NCBI RefSeq assembly: GCF_027943725.1
Contig: NZ_AP025696.1
Span: 721,501-785,500 of the forward strand
Direction: 5' to 3'
Source of the DNA: Nitrosophilus kaiyonis
Lineage (GTDB): Bacteria > Campylobacterota > Campylobacteria > Campylobacterales > Nitratiruptoraceae
Length of the DNA: 64,000 nt
Of the stretch, positions 287 through 18,276 are shown in pieces. The notes under the pieces are model-generated. The model did no database searches. It worked only from the letters and a program-made list of their open reading frames with translations, and was not told the origin of the DNA. The position numbers and the translations under genes are program-made. Every line of letters starts with the position of its first letter. The first letter of the stretch is position 1.

Positions 287-2629
287 ATGAAAAAGCTTTT
301 TACCTTTCTTTTTATAATACCGTTTATTTGGGCAAACAACTGTATTAAATGCCACAAAGGAATAGAAGATATTCGTAATCCTAATAGTGGTATGGCAAAA
401 GCGATAGCAAAAAAGGCTAAAGAAGCTGGTTTTGCTGATAATAGTTGTATTGTCTGTCACGGAGGAAATCCTAAAGCAACTACAAAAGAGGATGCCCATA
501 AAGAAACGATAGATTACTTTTTAAAAAATAGTGGTCCAAAAGAGTTCTATCCAGATCCTGGAAGCGCATGGATAAATAAAAATACATGTGGAATGTGTCA
601 TAAAGAGCAGGTTGCTGCACAGATGAACAATCTTATGAATACAGAGCAAGGAAAGATTCAAGGAGCGCTTTGGGGATTTGGATGGAATATAAGAGAGCAT
701 AAATATGCAAACTATAATCTAACAAATCTTCATAAAAGATTTGGAACAAAAACTTATCAAAATTATATGAAACAGCTATCACAGAAAGAGCCCCAAGTTT
801 TTGTGAAAAAAACTATCGAGCTACCTCCAGCACCAACTGCTGATGAGGTTGAAAAAGATCCAAAATTGGCAGCTATTACATATCTGCGCCAAGAGTGTTT
901 AAGATGTCATACAGCAAGTAAAGGAAGAAGTAGAAGAGGAGACTATAGAGGGATGGGGTGCAGTAGCTGTCACATTCCATACTCAAATAACGGCTTTTAT
1001 GAAGGAAATGATCCAACCATACCAAAAAATGAGCCTGGACATATGTTAACTCATCAAATCCAAGCCTCAAGAGATGCAAAAGTTCATATTAGCACTCTCA
1101 CATATAGCGGTATTCCAGTGGAAACATGTACAACTTGCCACAATAGAGGAAAAAGAATAGGTGTAAGCTATCAAGGGCTTATGGAAACAGCATATAATCC
1201 AACATTTGATGAACATGGAAATCCTCAGCCAAAACTACATACAAAACACTATCTACATATGAGTGAAGACGTACACTATAAAAAGGGGATGCTATGTCAG
1301 GACTGCCATACAAGTATTGATGTACATGGTGATGGGGCAATTGCAGGCTCCACTTTAGCTCCTGTAGAGATAGAGTGTCAAGATTGCCATGGAACTATAA
1401 AGCGATATCCTTGGGAGCTTCCTTTAGGATATTCAGATGAGTTTGGACAAAAACTTTCTAATAAGCCAAGAGGTATTACAAAAACATTAGCTGAATATCT
1501 CAAAAAAGGAACATATTATAAACCAAAAGATGGATATTTACTAAGTGCAAGAGGAAATCCGCTACCAAATGTTGTAAAAAGTGGTGATGAGGTGATTGTT
1601 CATCTTGCTAGTGGGAAAGATTTAAAATTAGAGCCACTTAAAAAGTTATCAAAAGAGCGTAAGCTATCTCAAGCAGCTCAAGTTGCAATGGGGCAGATAG
1701 AAAAACATCTTGAAAAGATGGAGTGTTATAGTTGTCATGATACTTGGGCGCCTCAATGTTATGGATGTCATGTTAAAGTTGATTATAGCAAAGGCAAAAA
1801 ACATATAGATTGGTTAGCAGTTGCACATGACCATGATGTTCATGGAGCAGATGCAGCTAAAAGAAAAACTCTAAAAGAGCATTTAATAGATGGAGAGGCG
1901 ACAGAAACAAGAAGCTATCTTAGATGGGAAGATCCGATTTTAGTACAAAATGGGGAAGGGCGAATTGCACCAGCAATTCCAGGTTGTCAAACAACGGTGA
2001 CTGTTATAGGAAAAGATGGCAAAACGATTATACAAAATCATATTTTCATAGGTCATGATAACGACAAAGAGGTACTTGCTATTGATATGGCGCCTGTACA
2101 CTCTCATACTGTGCAAAAAGAGGCAAGAAGTTGTGAAAGCTGCCATACAAATCCAAAATCTATGGGATTTGGTATAGGAGGCGGAAAGCTTTTTTCAACT
2201 CCTGGTGATACACTTATTGTTGATCTTATGACTGCAGATGGTAAAGTAATTCCAAAAAAAGTAACGATTCAAAAACCAAAAGTTGAAGGACTTAGCTTTG
2301 ATTGGAGCAAAATCATTGATGAAAATGCCACTCAGCTTGTTACTGTAGGACATCACTGGAATCTCTCAAGAGCATTAAATAAAGAGGAGCTTTCTAAACT
2401 TGATAGAAGAGAGGTATGTATGAGTTGTCATAAAACTATGCCAGATCATGACTTAGCAGTGAGTTTAATGGTACATGTGGCAAACATGTCAAATATTAAA
2501 ATAGATAACGATATGCATAAAAATATTTTGAATAAAAATCTGTTGCTAAGTGCATGGGTACAAATTGGAGGAGTAGCTCTTATATTTTTAGGTTTATTAT
2601 ATTGGTTTGTTCGTATAAGAAGGAGATAA
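287..2629 (+). CDS. Twelve-haem membrane-anchored cytochrome c
   Basis: Periplasmic electron-transfer or redox enzyme of 780 aa. An N-terminal signal peptide ends near residue 16. Twelve CxxCH haem motifs start near residues 19, 54, 101, 204, 225, 281, 337, 364, 480, 491, 616 and 711. One transmembrane helix (about 752-775) followed by RIRRR anchors the C-terminus with most of the protein outside. The last haem segment lies close to the membrane, suggesting exchange with the quinone pool or a partner cytochrome. Start supported by an AAGGA ribosome site. I cannot assign it to NrfA, octahaem hydroxylamine oxidoreductase or tetrathionate reductase: haem count and anchor differ, and no CxxCK is seen. 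It is a single gene with its own short hairpin at the end. Confidence 0.85.
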   Translation: MKKLFTFLFIIPFIWANNCIKCHKGIEDIRNPNSGMAKAIAKKAKEAGFADNSCIVCHGGNPKATTKEDAHKETIDYFLKNSGPKEFYPDPGSAWINKNTCGMCHKEQVAAQMNNLMNTEQGKIQGALWGFGWNIREHKYANYNLTNLHKRFGTKTYQNYMKQLSQKEPQVFVKKTIELPPAPTADEVEKDPKLAAITYLRQECLRCHTASKGRSRRGDYRGMGCSSCHIPYSNNGFYEGNDPTIPKNEPGHMLTHQIQASRDAKVHISTLTYSGIPVETCTTCHNRGKRIGVSYQGLMETAYNPTFDEHGNPQPKLHTKHYLHMSEDVHYKKGMLCQDCHTSIDVHGDGAIAGSTLAPVEIECQDCHGTIKRYPWELPLGYSDEFGQKLSNKPRGITKTLAEYLKKGTYYKPKDGYLLSARGNPLPNVVKSGDEVIVHLASGKDLKLEPLKKLSKERKLSQAAQVAMGQIEKHLEKMECYSCHDTWAPQCYGCHVKVDYSKGKKHIDWLAVAHDHDVHGADAAKRKTLKEHLIDGEATETRSYLRWEDPILVQNGEGRIAPAIPGCQTTVTVIGKDGKTIIQNHIFIGHDNDKEVLAIDMAPVHSHTVQKEARSCESCHTNPKSMGFGIGGGKLFSTPGDTLIVDLMTADGKVIPKKVTIQKPKVEGLSFDWSKIIDENATQLVTVGHHWNLSRALNKEELSKLDRREVCMSCHKTMPDHDLAVSLMVHVANMSNIKIDNDMHKNILNKNLLLSAWVQIGGVALIFLGLLYWFVRIRRR

Positions 2630-2640
2630 AAATCCTTTTT
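2620..2640 (+). terminator. Short hairpin with T tail after the 12-haem cytochrome gene
   Basis: AAGGA (2620-2624) and TCCTT (2633-2637) form a 5-bp stem that overlaps the stop codon and runs into a T stretch. This weak intrinsic terminator is plausible but not certain. Confidence 0.4.
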
Positions 2641-2912
2641 ATACAAGTTTATCTAACTTTTTTCAAAATTTAATAATGTGTTTGATAGATAATAAATTTT
2701 ACTATTTTTTCATATATTCAGTAAGAATTTTTGTTTAATTAAATAAAAGGGTTTATCTGATTGGATATTTAAATATTTTTATTTTCTATTTGCTCAGAAT
2801 AGTTTTATATAAATAGTTATTTTTTAAGAAAAGCATCAAAAAATAAGGTGAGTTTAATTTTTAAAGTAATATACTTAATTAAAGAATATTTTATTTTTAA
2901 CAAGGATAAATT

Positions 2913-5900
2913 ATGAGAAAAATATTTTTGATGCTTTTTACTCTCATTTTATCTGTCGCAAATGGTACTGTGTTGACTCATGTTGTATCTTCCCCAGATA
3001 ATAAACCAGATTTATCAATTGTTGATGTAAAAATCAAAAAAAATATAAAATCTGGTGACATTATTGGTAAAAATAGAGAAATTTTAATCATTATAAAAAA
3101 TATAGGCAAAAAAACTGCACCAAAAAGTATTTTAAAATTGGTTTGTAAATCAAGAAATGGTTGTCCAAAAATTTTAAATGGAACAGTTAATATATCCTCA
3201 TTAAGGCCAAATCAAACAAAGAAAATATACTGGCCACTTAAATATAGCAATAAATATAGATGGAAAGAGGGAGAATATAGATTTAGAGCAACTGTTCATA
3301 TACTACAAACAAATTTTACTGCAGCCCAGGTTTCATCAATCGAGAAAAATATAAATAACAATAAAAAAGATTTTATTGTAAAAGTATTAGGTGAAGATAA
3401 GAGTGATTTAACAATAAGTAATATAAAACTTTCAAAAAAGATATGCTCTGGTGATTTAATAAGAAAAAGTGGAAAAATTTTAGTAACTATAAAAAATATA
3501 GGTAAAAAAGATGCTCCTGCTACTACATTAAAAGTTTCTTGTATTAATTTAGCTTCAAGTGGAGCCGTAACAAGTTTAAGTGCAAACTTTTCTGGGATTT
3601 GTCCAGACTTTTTAAAAGGAATGGCAAAAATACCTTCTATTAAATCTGGACATAGTTATATTTTAAAATGGCCTTATAATAAGAATAAAAAATGGAGAAA
3701 GGGTAAATATAAACTAGAGTTTTTTGTTGATGATAGAAATAGAATCAAAGAATCTAAAGAAGACAATAATAAAAAATATTTTATTTTAGAAGTAAAAGAG
3801 TGTAAACCAAAACTATCTATGGTGACAAAACCTACTTTAAAAGTTCCTAAATTTAAGAAAAAGATTATATTTGACAAAATTTTTCCATCATATTGGTATT
3901 CAGGCAAAAAATATGAAATTATAGTCAGAGGAAAAGGATTTAGTAAAAATTTAGATTTTAAATTTGATAAAAAATTTATAAAAATCATTTCAAAAAAATA
4001 TATAAATAGTAATATGTATAAATTAACAATAAATATATCTGAGAAAATAAAACCTTCAAAAACAAGACTCTATTATAAAGAGATTGCAAAAAATTCAAAA
4101 TATTTATATACCGGACTTTATGGTTGGTTAAAAGAGAAGAAAAAGCATAAAAAAATAGTTGTACCAAAAATAAAATTGCCGAAAATTTCATATAAAGTTC
4201 CCTTTATTAAAGGAAAAATTATATTAGAAAGGCCAAGATTTGGTAAAAGTGGAAGTGGGGATGTGTATCAGGATTTGGGGATACCTAAACTCAATGATAA
4301 AACAGTATTTTCATTTAGAGAGCAAAATCCAGGATTAGCTGATTGGTTTGAGCTTCAAATATTAGATAAAAGTGGGAAAGTTTTAGTAAAAAGAGATCTC
4401 GGAAAAAATCTATATTATAGAGCCGATCCTGATTTTGTATATGAGGTTTTATCTTTATTGAAACAAAAAGGATTGTTAAAAATTTCTAATATTTTGAAAA
4501 AAAGTTCAAAAATCAATACTTCTGCTTTGAAAAATATAAAAAATAATAGTAAAAAGACAAAAATTTCTAAAAAAGAGATAAACTATTTTAAATTAACTCC
4601 TCAAAAAAAGAGAAAAAGCTATATAGAAGAGCATAATGATGAGATAAGTTTATATTGGGCAGTAATTGGTAAAAAAAGATTTCCAAAAGATGGAATTGTA
4701 AAAATTGGTGATCATGAAAGAAAAATTGTCAGTTATGAAACTGTTTTAGTGGAAGAGTCTGAAAAATGGCCATTAAAAGTTAATGATTTTACAACTGGAT
4801 TTAGTTGTAGATCAACTAGTAAAGGAAACATAAATATTCAAAATTTAGATCTTGGGCAAGAAGAGCCCGGAAAAGTTTCCACAGTTAATTATGTTGGAGA
4901 TAGATTTGAACTTTCTGGCGTTTTTGATATATCAGATTCTCCATGGGGTTTTTCAAGACCAAATCAAATATTTACCAATGGTGGAATGATTGATGCAAGT
5001 CCTGTCCCAAGAAATATTTTTATTAGCTGGGGGGATGGTACAGTTGAATCATTAGATATGGTGCCATTGGAAAGTTTTGGTACAAGATTTAGGATAAATA
5101 ATATGATACATCAATATGCAAGTACTGGCAAGAAAAAGATAAAAATTTTTATGTTACCAGAATCAGAAATACAAAATATCAACGTATCAAGTATGGTTTT
5201 TGCATACGACTTTTATGAAGGCTCAAAAACAGCCTCATTAAATGCAGTTTCTATGAATAGTAGTTTTGATAATCCTTATTATCAAGTTTTGGGATTAAGC
5301 GGAGATTTACCAAAACCAAATGCAGATTTATTAAATATAGCAAAGCATGCCTATATTATATATTGTAATCAAATTGCAATTGAACCACGAAAAGACCTAG
5401 TTGCTTCAGGGCCTTTACATTTAGATGATATTTTTATTTATGATTATAACGGTGGAAAGGTAGAAAATGAGAAAAAATATGGTCTTAATATTCAGGAAAA
5501 TTTAAAAAATACACAAGTAAATATTGAAAAATATGGAACAAAAAACATTAAAATAGAGAAAAAATCTATACAGAAAAAAGTTGATAATAAAAATAACAAA
5601 AAAGAGTTTTTATTTAAAACTTCAACTGAAAAAATCAAAAATATTCAAGAATTTGCAAAAGGTATAGAATTAAGTGAATGTGATATATTGCAAGCAAATG
5701 CTAAATTAAGATATTATGGAAAAGGAAGTGTTCTTTTTAAATGGAAACTTATTGGTCCAGATGGAAATGAACTTATTTTAGAGAGTAAAAGAGAAGATAT
5801 AGGGCCATCAAGATTTAGAGAAAATCTAACAAAAGATAATTATAAGATTCCAACACAAGATTCTTATAGCTATTATCCTTTATTATCAAAAGTTTTATAT

Positions 5901-13153: not shown

Positions 13154-14203
13154 ATGAAAAAATTTATTTTATTTTTTATATCAGTGTTACTTTTTGCAGA
13201 TACAAAAATATTTATTTATCCAAAAAATGTTGCATTTATAAAACAAGATAAAAATATTGCATTAGAAGATGGTGTCGGATATATTGAGAATATTCCAAGA
13301 AATATAATTTTAGACTCAATCTATTTTGATAAAAATGTTAATTCATTCTATTTCAAAAATGGAAGATTGTATATTAAAACTGAAAAAAGCGATTTTTTGA
13401 AAACAAAAATATCTTATTTAACAAAAGGAATTAGCTATAAAATAAGCTATGTAGGAAAATTGGATAAAAAATTACAATTGATTGGATATTGCCAAATATC
13501 TAATAATAGTAAAATTTTTTATAATAATGCAGATATTAGCTTTATTGCAGGCGAATTCAATATAAACTTTAAGCTTCCAATTTATATCTATAAAAGAGCA
13601 AAAGCTTTAACATATGAAAATATGCCAAATAGAATAGAGGGATATTATAGATATGATTTTCCATTTAAAATAGATTTAGAGCCAAACTCAATAAGAATAA
13701 ATAAGTTTTTAAATAAAAAAGTAGATTATAAAAAGATATATAGCTTAGAAGTTTTTGATTCTTTATCAAGATTTGGTCAAAAAGTTTTTAAATTTGATCA
13801 AATTATATCATTTAATACACCTTTATCTTTACCTGCAGGCGTAATAAGATTTTATAAAGATACTTTTTTGGGAGAAAATTTTATAAAAAATAGTCCAAAA
13901 AATAGTTATTTGAATTTAAAAATAGGAAAAGATTTTGATATAAGTTTAAAAAGAGTACAAAAGGAATATAATAAAACAAAAAAATTTGTTTATACTAAGA
14001 TTAAATTTATCATAAAAAATCCAAAAGACAAAGATATTAATCTACAAATAAAAGATTTTTTTCCAAATTCTAATGCAAAAATAAGAGCCGATATTAAATA
14101 TAAAAAACTAGATGCAAATACAATAATATATAATGTAAAAGTTCCTAAAAAATCAAAAATAGAATTTACTGCTTCATATAAAGTACTTCAACAAAACATT
14201 TGA
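13154..14203 (+). CDS. Exported DUF4139-like protein
   Basis: A 349-aa protein with a signal peptide (about 1-17). The middle and C-terminal parts follow the pattern of DUF4139 (mucoidy-inhibitor-like) proteins: a segment like SYLTKGISYKISYVGKLD (compare the family's YLxxxxxWxxxY), a following N-N-x-x-x-x-x-x-A-x-I-x-x-x-A-G-E motif, and a late KFIIKNPKDKDINLQIKDFFP strand pair. Family function is unknown; members are envelope-associated. It is shorter than typical members, which carry an N-terminal coiled coil, and no coiled coil is evident here. It lies 3 bp after the aldo/keto reductase gene. Confidence 0.6.
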   Translation: MKKFILFFISVLLFADTKIFIYPKNVAFIKQDKNIALEDGVGYIENIPRNIILDSIYFDKNVNSFYFKNGRLYIKTEKSDFLKTKISYLTKGISYKISYVGKLDKKLQLIGYCQISNNSKIFYNNADISFIAGEFNINFKLPIYIYKRAKALTYENMPNRIEGYYRYDFPFKIDLEPNSIRINKFLNKKVDYKKIYSLEVFDSLSRFGQKVFKFDQIISFNTPLSLPAGVIRFYKDTFLGENFIKNSPKNSYLNLKIGKDFDISLKRVQKEYNKTKKFVYTKIKFIIKNPKDKDINLQIKDFFPNSNAKIRADIKYKKLDANTIIYNVKVPKKSKIEFTASYKVLQQNI

Positions 14204-14236
14204 CGATAAAATTCAAAAATATATTGACTTTTATCG
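14204..14236 (+). terminator. Inverted repeat after the DUF4139-like gene
   Basis: CGATAAAA (14204-14211) and TTTTATCG (14229-14236) form 8-bp arms around a 17-base loop directly after the stop codon, with a T run nearby. Probably a weak terminator. Confidence 0.4.
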
Positions 14237-14260
14237 CCACTTTTTTGTATACTTCTGTAA

Positions 14261-14279
14261 TAATTATGTGACATAATTA
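14261..14279. promoter_or_regulatory. 19-bp palindrome upstream of the recombinase-like gene
   Basis: TAATTATGTGACATAATTA is an 8-bp inverted repeat around a 3-base centre, ending 31 bp before the ATG of the recombinase-like gene. It is a candidate operator, perhaps for self-regulation or a Crp/Fnr-type regulator. Which protein binds it is unknown. Confidence 0.4.
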
Positions 14280-14310
14280 AAATTATTATAAATTATTATA
14301 AAGAAGTTAT

Positions 14311-14964
14311 ATGGTGTATGCATATTTAAGAGCTCAAAATATTAGATATTCAATTGCTTCTCAAGAAAAAAGTATAGAAGATTTTGCCGCAAAAAAGGGA
14401 TATAGTATTGAAGAAAAAGAGGTTGAAATCTCTTCATATAATAAACCTCTTGAAGAGAGAGATGATTTTAGAGCTTTTTTGCATTCATTAAATAGTGGTG
14501 ATAAACTTTTTATTTATGACTTTTCTATTTTTAGTAATCGAGTAGGTGAAATTGTAAAAATATTAAATTGCCTTTTTAAAAGAGGAATTGATATCTATAT
14601 TAGTAAATATTCTATAAAAATAAATGAAAATACACCTGCAAAAGTTGTAGTTTCTCTTTTAAATGAATTAAGAGAAAGTTTTAAAGAGTATAAAAAGAAA
14701 GGTTTAGGAAGACCAAAAGGAAGTATTTCAAAATCAAAATATGATGTTTATAGAAATAAAATTTTGCAACTGCTAAAGGAGGGTAAAAGTGTAAATGAGA
14801 TATCAAAGCTTTTAAATGTTAGTAGAACTTCACTTAGAGATTATATAATTTCAAGAAATCTAAAAGAGCTTGCTGCTACAGAGGGGAATATTGATAGTGT
14901 GGGAGAAATATTTATTATCCCAACTTCAGAATGTAAAATAGAAAAAAATTCAAAAAAAGGATAA
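14311..14964 (+). CDS. Serine-recombinase-like protein with lost catalytic residues, likely regulator
   Basis: 217 aa. The N-terminal 130 residues follow the resolvase/invertase fold: YAYLRAQN replaces YxRVST, later GDKLFIYDFSIFSN replaces GDxLxVxxLDRLxR. The nucleophilic serine is replaced (RAQ instead of RVS) and the arginines of the DRLxR motif are missing, so DNA cleavage is unlikely. The C-terminal part keeps GLGRPKGS, as in resolvases, and a helix-turn-helix (GKSVNEISKLLNVSRTSLRDYI, split here as GKSVNEISKLL and NVSRTSLRDYI), so DNA binding is probably kept. It ends 3 bp before ccoG and is probably co-transcribed. Inference: a transcription factor derived from a recombinase, possibly controlling respiratory genes. 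Confidence 0.75.
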   Translation: MVYAYLRAQNIRYSIASQEKSIEDFAAKKGYSIEEKEVEISSYNKPLEERDDFRAFLHSLNSGDKLFIYDFSIFSNRVGEIVKILNCLFKRGIDIYISKYSIKINENTPAKVVVSLLNELRESFKEYKKKGLGRPKGSISKSKYDVYRNKILQLLKEGKSVNEISKLLNVSRTSLRDYIISRNLKELAATEGNIDSVGEIFIIPTSECKIEKNSKKG

Positions 14965-14967
14965 ATA

Positions 14968-16413
14968 ATGGCAACTGCGACTGCAACTGCTGCGCCTAAA
15001 AAAAATAGGGCAAAAGAGTATCTTAAAAACTGGATACCATATAGGTATAAACGTTATGTTTTTTTTGCAATAGTTACTATTGTGGCTTTGGTTCTTCCAT
15101 GGATAAAGATAAATGGAAATCACTTTTTCTTATTAAATTTTGACCATAAACAGCTTCATCTTTTCTTTGTTAGATTTGATATGCAAGAGCTATATTTAAT
15201 GCCATTCTTGCTTTGGATTTTGTTTTTTGGGATATTTTTTATTACTACTCTTGGTGGACGTGTTTGGTGTGGATGGAGTTGTCCGCAAACAATTTTTAGA
15301 GTAATTTATAGAGATCTATTTGAAACAAAACTTTTACACTTAAGAAAAAGAATATCAAATAAACAGATTGAACCAGATATGAGCAAGCCTGAAAATAAGG
15401 CTAAAAAAGTAATTGCAATTTTACTTTGGTCTGTTTTAGCATTTGTTGCTGCAGCTGATTTTATCTGGTATTTTGTTCCACCTGAAGACTTTTTTGCATA
15501 TATTCAAAATCCTGGCGAACACACAATATTAATGGGATTTTGGATTGGTATAGCTCTATTTTTAATAGCCGATATTGTTTTTATTAAAGAGAATTTTTGT
15601 ATATATATCTGTCCATATGCAAGAGTTCAGTCAGTTTTATATGATGAAGATACTTTTCAAACAGTATATGATTATAAAAGAGGCGGTAAGATCTATGATG
15701 AGCATGGCCATTTAATAGTACATAATAAAAAAGAGTTAAAAGAGCAAAATGAAAATGCTGAATGTACCCTTTGTGAATCCTGTGTTAAGGTTTGTCCAAC
15801 CCATATAGATATACGAAAAGGTATGCAGCTTGAGTGTATTAACTGTCTTGAATGTGCTGATGCTTGTACAAAAGTTATGGGAGCTTTGGGAAAAGAGTCT
15901 TTAGTTAGATGGACAAGTTATCATGCGTTGGAGAGTGGTGAAAAAACAAGGGTATTTAGATTTAGAATAATTGCATATATTGTAATGCTAACAATTGCAT
16001 TTGTAGCGCTTTTTTATATGGGAAGCAAAAAAGAGCATATGCTACTTAATATAAATAGAACAAGTCAGCTATATAAAATTGAGCCAAATGGTGTTGTTAA
16101 AAACTCTTATATATTCTTATTTCAAAATACAGAAAATGAAAAACATAAATACTATTTTGAAATTGTTGATAATAAAGATATAAAAATTGCAAGACCTAAA
16201 AAGCCATTTGATGTAATTCCAGGTAAAAAAGTTAAAAAAGTTGTAATTTTATATACAGATAAGGTGTTAGTAAAAGATACACATAAAGATACGCCAATTC
16301 CTATAACAATTAAAGCATATGCAGTTGATGATCCTAAAAAGATTGTTGTTACAAGAAAAACTATATTTGTTTATCCAAGATGGGATATTTATCAAAAAAA
16401 GATTAAAAAATAG
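14968..16413 (+). CDS. ccoG: Cytochrome c oxidase accessory protein CcoG
   Basis: Membrane iron-sulfur protein used in maturation of cbb3-type oxidase, thought to reduce copper for the CuB site. 481 aa, about five transmembrane helices. Polyferredoxin-type signatures: WCGWSCPQT and FCIYICPYARVQS in the membrane domain, then a 2x[4Fe-4S] domain with C266xxC269xxC272xxxC276P and C290xxC293xxC296xxxC300. The C-terminal periplasmic Ig-like FixG domain covers about 370-481. Length is normal. It implies that a cbb3 oxidase is encoded elsewhere in the genome. The dead-recombinase gene lies 3 bp upstream; a hairpin follows. Confidence 0.95.
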   Translation: MATATATAAPKKNRAKEYLKNWIPYRYKRYVFFAIVTIVALVLPWIKINGNHFFLLNFDHKQLHLFFVRFDMQELYLMPFLLWILFFGIFFITTLGGRVWCGWSCPQTIFRVIYRDLFETKLLHLRKRISNKQIEPDMSKPENKAKKVIAILLWSVLAFVAAADFIWYFVPPEDFFAYIQNPGEHTILMGFWIGIALFLIADIVFIKENFCIYICPYARVQSVLYDEDTFQTVYDYKRGGKIYDEHGHLIVHNKKELKEQNENAECTLCESCVKVCPTHIDIRKGMQLECINCLECADACTKVMGALGKESLVRWTSYHALESGEKTRVFRFRIIAYIVMLTIAFVALFYMGSKKEHMLLNINRTSQLYKIEPNGVVKNSYIFLFQNTENEKHKYYFEIVDNKDIKIARPKKPFDVIPGKKVKKVVILYTDKVLVKDTHKDTPIPITIKAYAVDDPKKIVVTRKTIFVYPRWDIYQKKIKK

Positions 16414-17106: not shown

Positions 17107-18276
17107 ATGAAAAAAGTATTGGTTTTAGGTGGAGGATTTGCGGGAGTTGAAGCTGCTATCTTTTTAAGAAAAGAGGGTTTTGAAGTTGATCTTGTTTCGC
17201 CAAGACCATATATGTATATATATCCAACTTCTATTTGGGTTCCTGTATATGATGCTGAATTTGCAGATGTATGTATTCCAATGGAAGATTTATCAAAAGT
17301 TCATGGATTTAATTGGATAAAAGATGAAGTAGTAAAAATAGAGGCAAAAAATAAAAAAGCAATCTGTAAAAATGGTGAATATAGTGGTGATTATTTAGTT
17401 ATTGCTATTGGAGCTGGAAAAGTCAAAGTTGAGGGAAGCGAAAATTATCTCTCAATATGTGGTGATCCTGAAGATGCAATAAAAATGAGAGATAAAATAG
17501 ATGAGCTTGTTACTGAAAAAAGAGGCGGAAAAATTGCAATGGGATTTGGTGGAAATCCAAAAGATAGCTCAGCAGTTAGAGGTGGGCCTGCTTTTGAAAT
17601 GATGTTTAATGTTCATAACTATTTAAAGAAAAAAGGACTTCGAGATAGATTTGAGTTAACCTTTTTTGCAACAATGGCAGAGCCTGGAAAAAGACTTGGT
17701 CCACAAGCACTTAAAATGATGGATATATTTTTCAATAAATTAAATATAAAAAAACATTTTGGAAAAAAGATAAAAAGATTTGAAAAAGATAGAATAGTTT
17801 TTGAAGATGATTCTATTTTAGAGAGTGATTTTACTATGTTTATTCCTGCAAATGCGGGACATCCTGTATTTAAAGAGAGTGATCTTCCTTTAAGTGAAGC
17901 TGGATTTGTTTTGGTTGATGAGTATTGTGAAGTAAAAGATATTCCTGGTGTTTATGCAGTAGGTGATAGTGCATATATCGAAGGTCCACAATGGAGAGCA
18001 AAACAGGGCCATATTGCTGAAGTTATGGCAAGAAATACAGCAAATAATATTGCAGTATCAAGTGGTGTTAAAGTTGGTAAATTGGAAAGTTATATAGAAC
18101 ATCTAAATATTATCTGTGTTATGGATAGCGGTGATGGAGCAGCATTTGTTTATAGAGATGATAAACGAGGAATCATGCTTCCTATGCCATTAGTTGGTCA
18201 TTGGCTTAAAAAGGGATGGGGATGGTATTGTAAAAATTCAAAACTAAATAAAATACCAAGGCTTCCAGGTTTATAA
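17107..18276 (+). CDS. FAD-dependent oxidoreductase of the SQR/NDH-2 superfamily
   Basis: 389 aa. N-terminal Rossmann dinucleotide fold VLVLGGGFAGVEAA, second nucleotide loop around FGGNPKDSSAVRGG, and the FAD-binding C-terminal signature DIPGVYAVGDSA. Overall it matches the sulfide:quinone reductase/flavocytochrome c/NDH-2 superfamily. I do not see the paired redox cysteines of true SQR (only single Cys near 57, 119 and others in non-family positions), so sulfide oxidation is not assured. It may be a quinone or NAD(P)H oxidoreductase. The next gene is a rhodanese, which supports a role in sulfane-sulfur metabolism. Confidence 0.75.
   Translation: MKKVLVLGGGFAGVEAAIFLRKEGFEVDLVSPRPYMYIYPTSIWVPVYDAEFADVCIPMEDLSKVHGFNWIKDEVVKIEAKNKKAICKNGEYSGDYLVIAIGAGKVKVEGSENYLSICGDPEDAIKMRDKIDELVTEKRGGKIAMGFGGNPKDSSAVRGGPAFEMMFNVHNYLKKKGLRDRFELTFFATMAEPGKRLGPQALKMMDIFFNKLNIKKHFGKKIKRFEKDRIVFEDDSILESDFTMFIPANAGHPVFKESDLPLSEAGFVLVDEYCEVKDIPGVYAVGDSAYIEGPQWRAKQGHIAEVMARNTANNIAVSSGVKVGKLESYIEHLNIICVMDSGDGAAFVYRDDKRGIMLPMPLVGHWLKKGWGWYCKNSKLNKIPRLPGL

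Follow-up and report, generated by a model that had tools for sequence, protein, structure and literature searches.

A catalytically dead serine recombinase encoded before ccoG in Campylobacterota, a probable autoregulatory repressor

In Nitrosophilus kaiyonis, the gene for CcoG, an assembly factor of the cbb3 oxidase, is directly preceded by a gene that reads as a small serine recombinase without its catalytic residues, and the locus raises the question of what a dead recombinase could be doing there. We addressed this question in a 64,000-nucleotide stretch of the genome (the window; contig NZ_AP025696.1 of assembly GCF_027943725.1, positions 721,501 to 785,500 of the forward strand), from whose first letter all coordinates below are counted unless another contig is named, and in related genomes. 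The recombinase-like gene, called reg here, occupies 14311-14964 on the forward strand and encodes 217 amino acids, as defined by its open reading frame, profile matches, structure models and residues. On the same strand, ccoG follows at 14968-16413 and is recognized by TIGR02745 (503.6 bits against a cut-off of 316.7, E 4.7e-151). The two genes are separated by 3 bp, exactly as placed in a preliminary description of this DNA made from its letters without database searches, and reg is present in a single copy in the 1.77-Mb genome. CcoG is described as a cupric reductase whose deletion in Campylobacter jejuni cuts Cco activity by about half (PMC8267372); the accessible part of that account, which concerns CcoG of C. 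jejuni (Cj0369c) and Rhodobacter capsulatus, proteins of the same family as the product of our operon's second gene, names no regulator of ccoG. We conclude that reg probably encodes a domesticated dead serine recombinase that would act as a dedicated autoregulatory, thiol-responsive and perhaps copper-sensing repressor of reg-ccoG.

The association of the two genes extends well beyond the window species. Searching 397 Campylobacterota genomes, each at least 90% complete, with a profile of 22 members recovered a reg orthologue in 98 (E ≤ 4.2e-52; the next-best match anywhere is 4.2e-25), spread over nine coded families by a tally read by hand from the genome listing (f17, 33; f6, 23; f20, 20; f1, 11; f11, 4; f4, 3; f7, 2; f5, 1; f14, 1). 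In 95 of these 98 genomes (44 + 51), reg stands directly before ccoG on the same strand. Two of the three exceptions, G395 and G300, lie at contig ends, and in G395 (locus L121) the start of ccoG is visible in the last 261 bp; in the third, G040 (locus L008, C1:39814-41420), an intact reg with the right arm of the dyad described below lies beside a decayed ccoG copy, and an intact ccoG is found elsewhere. At L148 (G220, C20:88927-89554), a decayed reg, seen as split matches with stops, precedes an intact ccoG, and the promoter lacks the dyad. In five genomes (G003, G018, G036, G075 and G093), ccoG is present twice, the copies scoring the same or almost the same, and only one of them follows reg.

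We complemented the genome set with 80 named contigs (L031-L110), the best 80 of 170 matches to a helix-turn-helix (HTH) motif, from Nitratiruptor, Hydrogenimonas, Sulfurovum, Sulfurospirillum, Sulfuricurvum, Sulfurimonas, other Campylobacterales and similar sources. A ccoG gene (>50% identity) lies downstream in 128 of the 140 loci examined. Counting identical proteins once leaves 107 distinct linked loci, which together with L008, L040 and L077 make up the 110 proteins compared below; the sequences compared are not independent of one another. The gap between reg and ccoG has a median of 1 bp and is at most 50 bp in 105 of the 107 distinct loci. Distances among reg proteins correlate with those among their ccoG partners (Mantel Spearman 0.68, 0/500 permutations) over the 99 of 107 loci that remained after eight with incomplete ccoG were left out. 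The ratio of nonsynonymous to synonymous substitution rates (dN/dS) of reg has a median of 0.076 and a range of 0.03-0.27 over 59 close, non-independent pairs, and by this measure reg is under purifying selection. The preliminary description had proposed a dead recombinase, its DNA-binding part kept, recruited beside ccoG; the link with ccoG elsewhere in Campylobacterota bears out conservation of the pair, and linkage and selection agree with the two genes being maintained together.

The protein has kept the fold of a recombinase. It matches the Pfam family Resolvase (PF00239) at E 2.8e-10, above the gathering score, and 71 of the 72 members of set A2 match the same family; its best NCBIfam model, for the Mpi invertase (NF009949), reaches 66.3 bits, far under the cut-off of 272. 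Two AlphaFold models have pLDDT values of 85.4 and 87.9. With the predicted structure, the top Foldseek rows are serine recombinases (Tn3 resolvase, E 5.9e-9), and VIA-align superimposes the model on a Streptomyces phage serine recombinase with Z 14.0 and 2.6 Å over 125 residues. Fold and domain order are those of the small serine recombinases (gamma-delta/Tn3 resolvase, Sin, Hin and Mpi invertase). The C-terminal HTH, residues 145-181 (14743-14853, forward strand), is placed by HTH profile matches and the second structure model; resolvase-type models (HTH_7 and related) match weakly in the window protein (E 1e-5 to 1e-3, below gathering), and HTH_7 matches at 0.001 in 51 of 72 members. HTH residues are among the most conserved in the family, an observation that is conditioned in L031-L110 because the search motif itself sits in the HTH. 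Ahead of it lies an AT-hook-like GRPKG arm, residues 133-137 (14707-14721, forward strand), in which G133, R134, P135 and G137 are invariant in 110/110 proteins. These matches agree with the resolvase fold and retained DNA-binding part that had been described.

Catalysis, as judged by residues, is gone. Alignment to intact recombinases of the same order (L029 and L030), and to gamma-delta resolvase by profile, shows that the window protein has S10 replaced by Gln, D67 by Ser, R68 by Ile and R71 by Asn. Among the 110 distinct members, the S10 position is Ser in two and the D67 position Asp in one, and Arg occurs at neither R68 nor R71 (the DRLGR motif) in any of them. Position R8 carries Arg in 87 members and Lys in another 21; R50, the equivalent of R45, is Arg in 108. 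The earlier statement that the serine and the arginines are lost is therefore correct for S10, R68 and R71 and wrong for R8 and R45, which are mostly kept; relatives with an intact active site do not appear among the 110. The reg family is also shorter by approximately 14 residues in the stretch that joins helix E to the GRPKG arm in the intact relatives. By these residues reg is a catalytically dead serine recombinase with its fold kept.

A 39-bp dyad that recurs upstream of reg genes came up unsought just outside the interval covered by the preliminary description. Its consensus is TGACGA(A/T)AAA(A) ... TTTT(A/T)TCGYCA, and in the window it is matched with 0 mismatches by TGACGATAAAA-N17-TTTTATCGCCA at 14201-14239 (no strand assigned), which we propose as the operator. 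The left half-site TGACGATAAAA (14201-14211, forward strand) contributes its TGA as the stop codon of the upstream gene, and the right half-site TGGCGATAAAA (14229-14239, reverse strand) was delimited by comparing promoters of the family. The right arm overlaps a −35 box, TTGACT (14224-14229, forward strand), followed after an 18-bp spacer by a −10 box, TATACT, recognized as a promoter match (14248-14253, forward strand).

We counted a dyad as exact when the half-sites TGRYGW and WCRYCA occurred with a span of 38-40 within 160 bp upstream, in 108 of the 110 promoters (L072 and L084, with <120 bp upstream, were left out). An exact dyad is present in 89 of the 108 reg promoters (100 dinucleotide-shuffled sets gave a mean of 0.1 and a maximum of 1) and in 0 of 30 ccoG promoters from genomes without intact reg. 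In a looser count, the right arm alone (≤3 mismatches) is found in 94 of 108 reg promoters; among the 30 reg-less ccoG genes it occurs in none within 250 bp and in one within 900 bp, at −791. With the 14 promoters lacking the right arm left out, the left half-site follows the 38-40 span in 88 of 94, and a −10-like hexamer (≤2 mismatches) lies 16-18 bp on in 94 of 94. At positions 3 and 6, a change in one arm tends to be matched by a change in the other (Fisher p 0.001 and 0.010, uncorrected for kinship). Allowing ≤3 mismatches, the window genome holds a single dyad, at reg-ccoG, against 0 for the control. Extra half-sites peak at 58-59 and 79 bp upstream, about two DNA turns apart, and at 13 bp downstream, which suggests cooperative assembly. 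Such additional TGACGA half-sites, in steps of about 20 bp upstream or 13 bp downstream, were seen in Sulfurovum-like (e.g., L041-L046) and Sulfuricurvum-like loci (e.g., L071, L099 and L108).

The preliminary description had pointed instead to a 19-bp palindrome, TAATTATGTGACATAATTA, at 14261-14279 (no strand assigned). The palindrome is indeed there, in the presumed 5′ leader and outside the conserved operator, and it is unique in the genome at ≤3 mismatches (its backwards control gives 2); yet the element conserved across families is the 39-bp dyad, which is the more likely binding site, and we rejected the palindrome as operator. It is perhaps the site of a second regulator or a hairpin in the mRNA. 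By eye, similar AT-rich palindromes in a similar place were seen only in the two closest relatives, L031 and L032. The same description had spoken of a transcription factor for respiration. We retain the regulator and consider respiration too wide, since the single dyad lies at reg's own operon and ccoN is ~303 kb away in the window genome, a distance that likewise led us to discard reg as part of a cco structural operon.

What signal might such a regulator read? Two cysteines are invariant in 110/110 proteins: C87, where the helix behind the dead active site ends (codon 14569-14571, forward strand), and C208, in the C-terminal tail (codon 14932-14934, forward strand). The tail around C208 hardly aligns and holds no other conserved residue. 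Neither cysteine falls within the HTH motif through which L031-L110 were collected. No further cysteine occurs in 61 of the 110 proteins, and 109 have exactly one tail cysteine. Neither C87 nor C208 was found in any of eight more distant relatives (L023-L030), which have K, K, Y, F, F, N, D and L, respectively, at position 87. The tail cysteine sits in LICPF (30/110), IRCPI (7/110), KECSL (15/110) and SECKI or TECKI (6/110) contexts, mostly of the form C-x-hydrophobic, a pattern that suggests docking of the tail on the dead catalytic domain. Invariance of the pair suggests a thiol or metal signal and, because CcoG is described as a cupric reductase, a cysteine pair in its dedicated regulator would point to Cu(I) or redox state. 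Cysteines form the signal site in CueR, CsoR, CopY and OxyR, which control copper or redox genes, and this would be the shared principle; unlike those sensors, reg has another scaffold and a putative metal site, and none of these families, whether the copper sensors MerR/CueR, CsoR and CopY or OxyR, is among the 19 Pfam families matched at E ≤ 1.

Two of the distant relatives separate the dyad from ccoG. L023 and L024 are dead recombinases that lack C87 and C208 and have no ccoG within the 1.2-1.5 kb that follow, and the 39-bp dyad precedes the start of each (L023 with 2 mismatches, 0/2000 shuffles as good; L024 with 5 mismatches, 9/2000). The dyad therefore follows the recombinase gene rather than ccoG, as autoregulation predicts. 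This is a hint, and only that, that autoregulation may be older than the link with ccoG and that the cysteines may have come with ccoG. A search for more ccoG-free relatives covered a family with only three genomes, two of them with a match. In L024, 1468-2016 is convergent with genes at 2127-3516 that by eye resemble those for the copper chaperones Sco and PCuAC, which may be a further link to copper.

These observations can be assembled into a mechanism. In a resolvase half-site the HTH part lies outside and the A/T-rich part inside, a layout that the reg dyad has in common with the sites of small serine recombinases. Recognition of TGACGA would fall to the C-terminal HTH, and the GRPKG arm would likely contact the A-tract of the half-site, on which it would lie as in resolvase half-sites. 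An oligomer on both half-sites would cover the −35 region and repress transcription, as Tn3 resolvase does at res; what favors repression is that the dyad sits on the −35 box of a promoter close to consensus. The promoters of tnpR and tnpA lie inside res, where Tn3 resolvase autoregulates them (PMC7157771), and this control by a recombinase of its own promoter, insofar as the source covers it, is the likeness to the role we propose for reg. Less certainly, C208 of the tail would meet C87 of the dead catalytic domain, via a disulfide or a thiol-seeking metal such as Cu(I), and redox or copper state would then alter DNA binding and so set the level of CcoG.

Several observations weigh against this proposal. 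reg is dispensable, because most ccoG-bearing genomes do without it: ccoG is present in 381 of the 397 genomes and reg in 98, leaving about three quarters of the ccoG-bearing genomes without reg. Nineteen of the 108 reg promoters have no exact dyad, and to our knowledge a 39-bp span exceeds the sites of small recombinases; loss of ~14 residues of the distal E helix makes the geometry by which a protein would bridge such a dyad harder to explain. Closeness of C87 and C208 in space finds no support in the predicted structures, in either of which the tail with C208 has low confidence (block mean pLDDT ~41 in the first model and ~60 in the second). The ccoG-free relatives are two loci of one genus. 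Finally, the regulon searches were too loose or too strict: the loose pattern (≤3 mismatches) is at control level elsewhere, with matches in 81 of 120 genomes and backwards controls similar, and the strict pattern, matched in 4 of 66 genomes with an orthologue (at the operon in three of them, at another place in the fourth), is too strict to exclude a wider regulon. Two genomes, G034 with 11 loose matches against 1 for the backwards control and G037 with 6 against 0, possibly have a wider regulon.

We also considered that reg could be an autoregulator with no cysteine switch, holding the operon at a constant low level, with the cysteines serving structure, for example as a fixed disulfide or an intersubunit zinc site. 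Autorepression alone accounts for the dyad, and in L023 and L024 the dyad is present in the absence of both cysteines. This view leaves unaccounted for the fact that both invariant cysteines, one of them in an otherwise unconserved tail, are confined to the ccoG-linked clade; moreover, the cytoplasm is reducing, and a fixed disulfide is unlikely for that reason. We therefore regard a switchless autoregulator as unlikely, though worth keeping in mind.

A more doubtful view is that the dyad belongs to a different transcription factor and that reg acts with ccoG in some other way, e.g., as a CcoG chaperone or partner. Its N-terminal recombinase domain might make protein contacts and C87 and C208 might pass copper, but the dyad is missing from all 30 reg-less ccoG promoters, including the one where reg has decayed (L148, G220), and is present before ccoG-free L023 and L024; conservation of the HTH, conditioned as it is in L031-L110, also speaks for a protein that binds DNA. 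Together these findings make a site for a different factor quite improbable.

The tail prompts a further alternative, a sensor of heme or another ligand, since a Cys-Pro pair resembles a heme regulatory motif. A proline follows the tail cysteine in many members (the LICPF and IRCPI contexts), and the cbb3 oxidase also needs heme. Cys-Pro is nonetheless far from universal, as the KECSL, SECKI and TECKI contexts show; the window protein has Cys-Lys, and no histidine is invariant in the reg family. A ligand sensor of this type is very improbable.

Could reg instead still recombine DNA, by inversion or resolution, with ccoG simply carried along? The match to an invertase family (NF009949, below its cut-off) and the inverted repeats could be read in this way, but S10, D67, R68 and R71 are lost throughout the family, and the genome contains one gene copy and one dyad. 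The phage search returned no match to reg, and the plasmid search matched 88 of 72,556 records, all at <60% identity and the best rows at ~32%; on these grounds we also rejected reg as a mobile-element gene. A PADLOC scan gave only weak matches (E 1.7e-4 at best). An active recombinase or inversion system, largely refuted by the lost active-site residues, is thus an extremely remote prospect. An equally slight chance attaches to a decaying remnant left before ccoG by accident, which would fit the absence of reg from many relatives and its decay in G220 and is refuted for most lineages by the low median dN/dS, the spread over 98 genomes and nine families, and the invariant residues.

The dedicated repressor that we favor differs from small serine recombinases in its lost S10, D67, R68 and R71, the ~14 missing distal E-helix residues, the extra C-terminal tail with an invariant cysteine, the 39-bp dyad, the lack of mobile-element signs and the tie to ccoG. 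Its closest parallel among recombinases may be MrpR (YopR) of prophage SPbeta, a dead tyrosine recombinase that binds DNA and acts as a repressor (PMC10516654). Lost catalysis and conversion to a DNA-binding repressor, the latter proposed for reg, are what the two would share; MrpR belongs to the tyrosine recombinases and controls phage lysogeny at a repeated element, and the part of the source available to us mentions no cysteine sensor. A review of recruited mobile-element genes treats serine recombinases as inverters of DNA and derives transcription factors from HTH proteins (PMC8987985), and in its accessible part a dead serine recombinase acting as a regulator is not among the cases. Our search of open-licence PubMed Central articles, by title and the start of the abstract, returned nothing recognizable on a ccoG regulator in Campylobacterota or on chromosomal regulation by a dead serine recombinase.

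If reg does act in this way, a gene that automated pipelines would label a resolvase or recombinase beside ccoG in many Campylobacterota would be a dedicated regulator of a copper-assembly factor of the cbb3 oxidase, and such genes should not count as mobile-element recombinases. As a chromosomal and probably signal-responsive transcription factor, it would be for serine recombinases what MrpR is for tyrosine recombinases, and its defined operator and two defined cysteines make the proposal directly testable. A bolder version, which we put forward tentatively as possible, is that reg represents a new family of sensory transcription factors in which Cu(I) or oxidation closes a C87-C208 clasp, linking what was once the catalytic domain with the DNA-binding domain and thereby matching CcoG to copper or redox state in Campylobacterota. 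In that version, a cysteine-free autoregulatory ancestor resembling L023 and L024 would have gained the clasp on joining ccoG, and the half-sites phased at 20 bp would reflect cooperative assembly.

Upstream neighbors of the operon in the window are confined to close relatives (the aldo/keto reductase is found in 5 of 78 loci). A second degenerate serine recombinase family occurs in Campylobacterota family f9 (L025, L026 and L027, around 1486-2127, oriented, and L028); it has NVFGR in place of DRLGR and has lost S10 in three of four members, and the 39-bp dyad was not found in these four loci. In L025-L027 the recombinase precedes genes read by eye as rplI, hslV and hslU. Downstream of ccoG in the window, 17107-18276 holds an oxidoreductase gene whose product resembles, by eye, a sulfide:quinone-oxidoreductase-like flavoprotein, and relatives of this gene lie near the reg-ccoG pair in 32 of the 78 loci with flanks.

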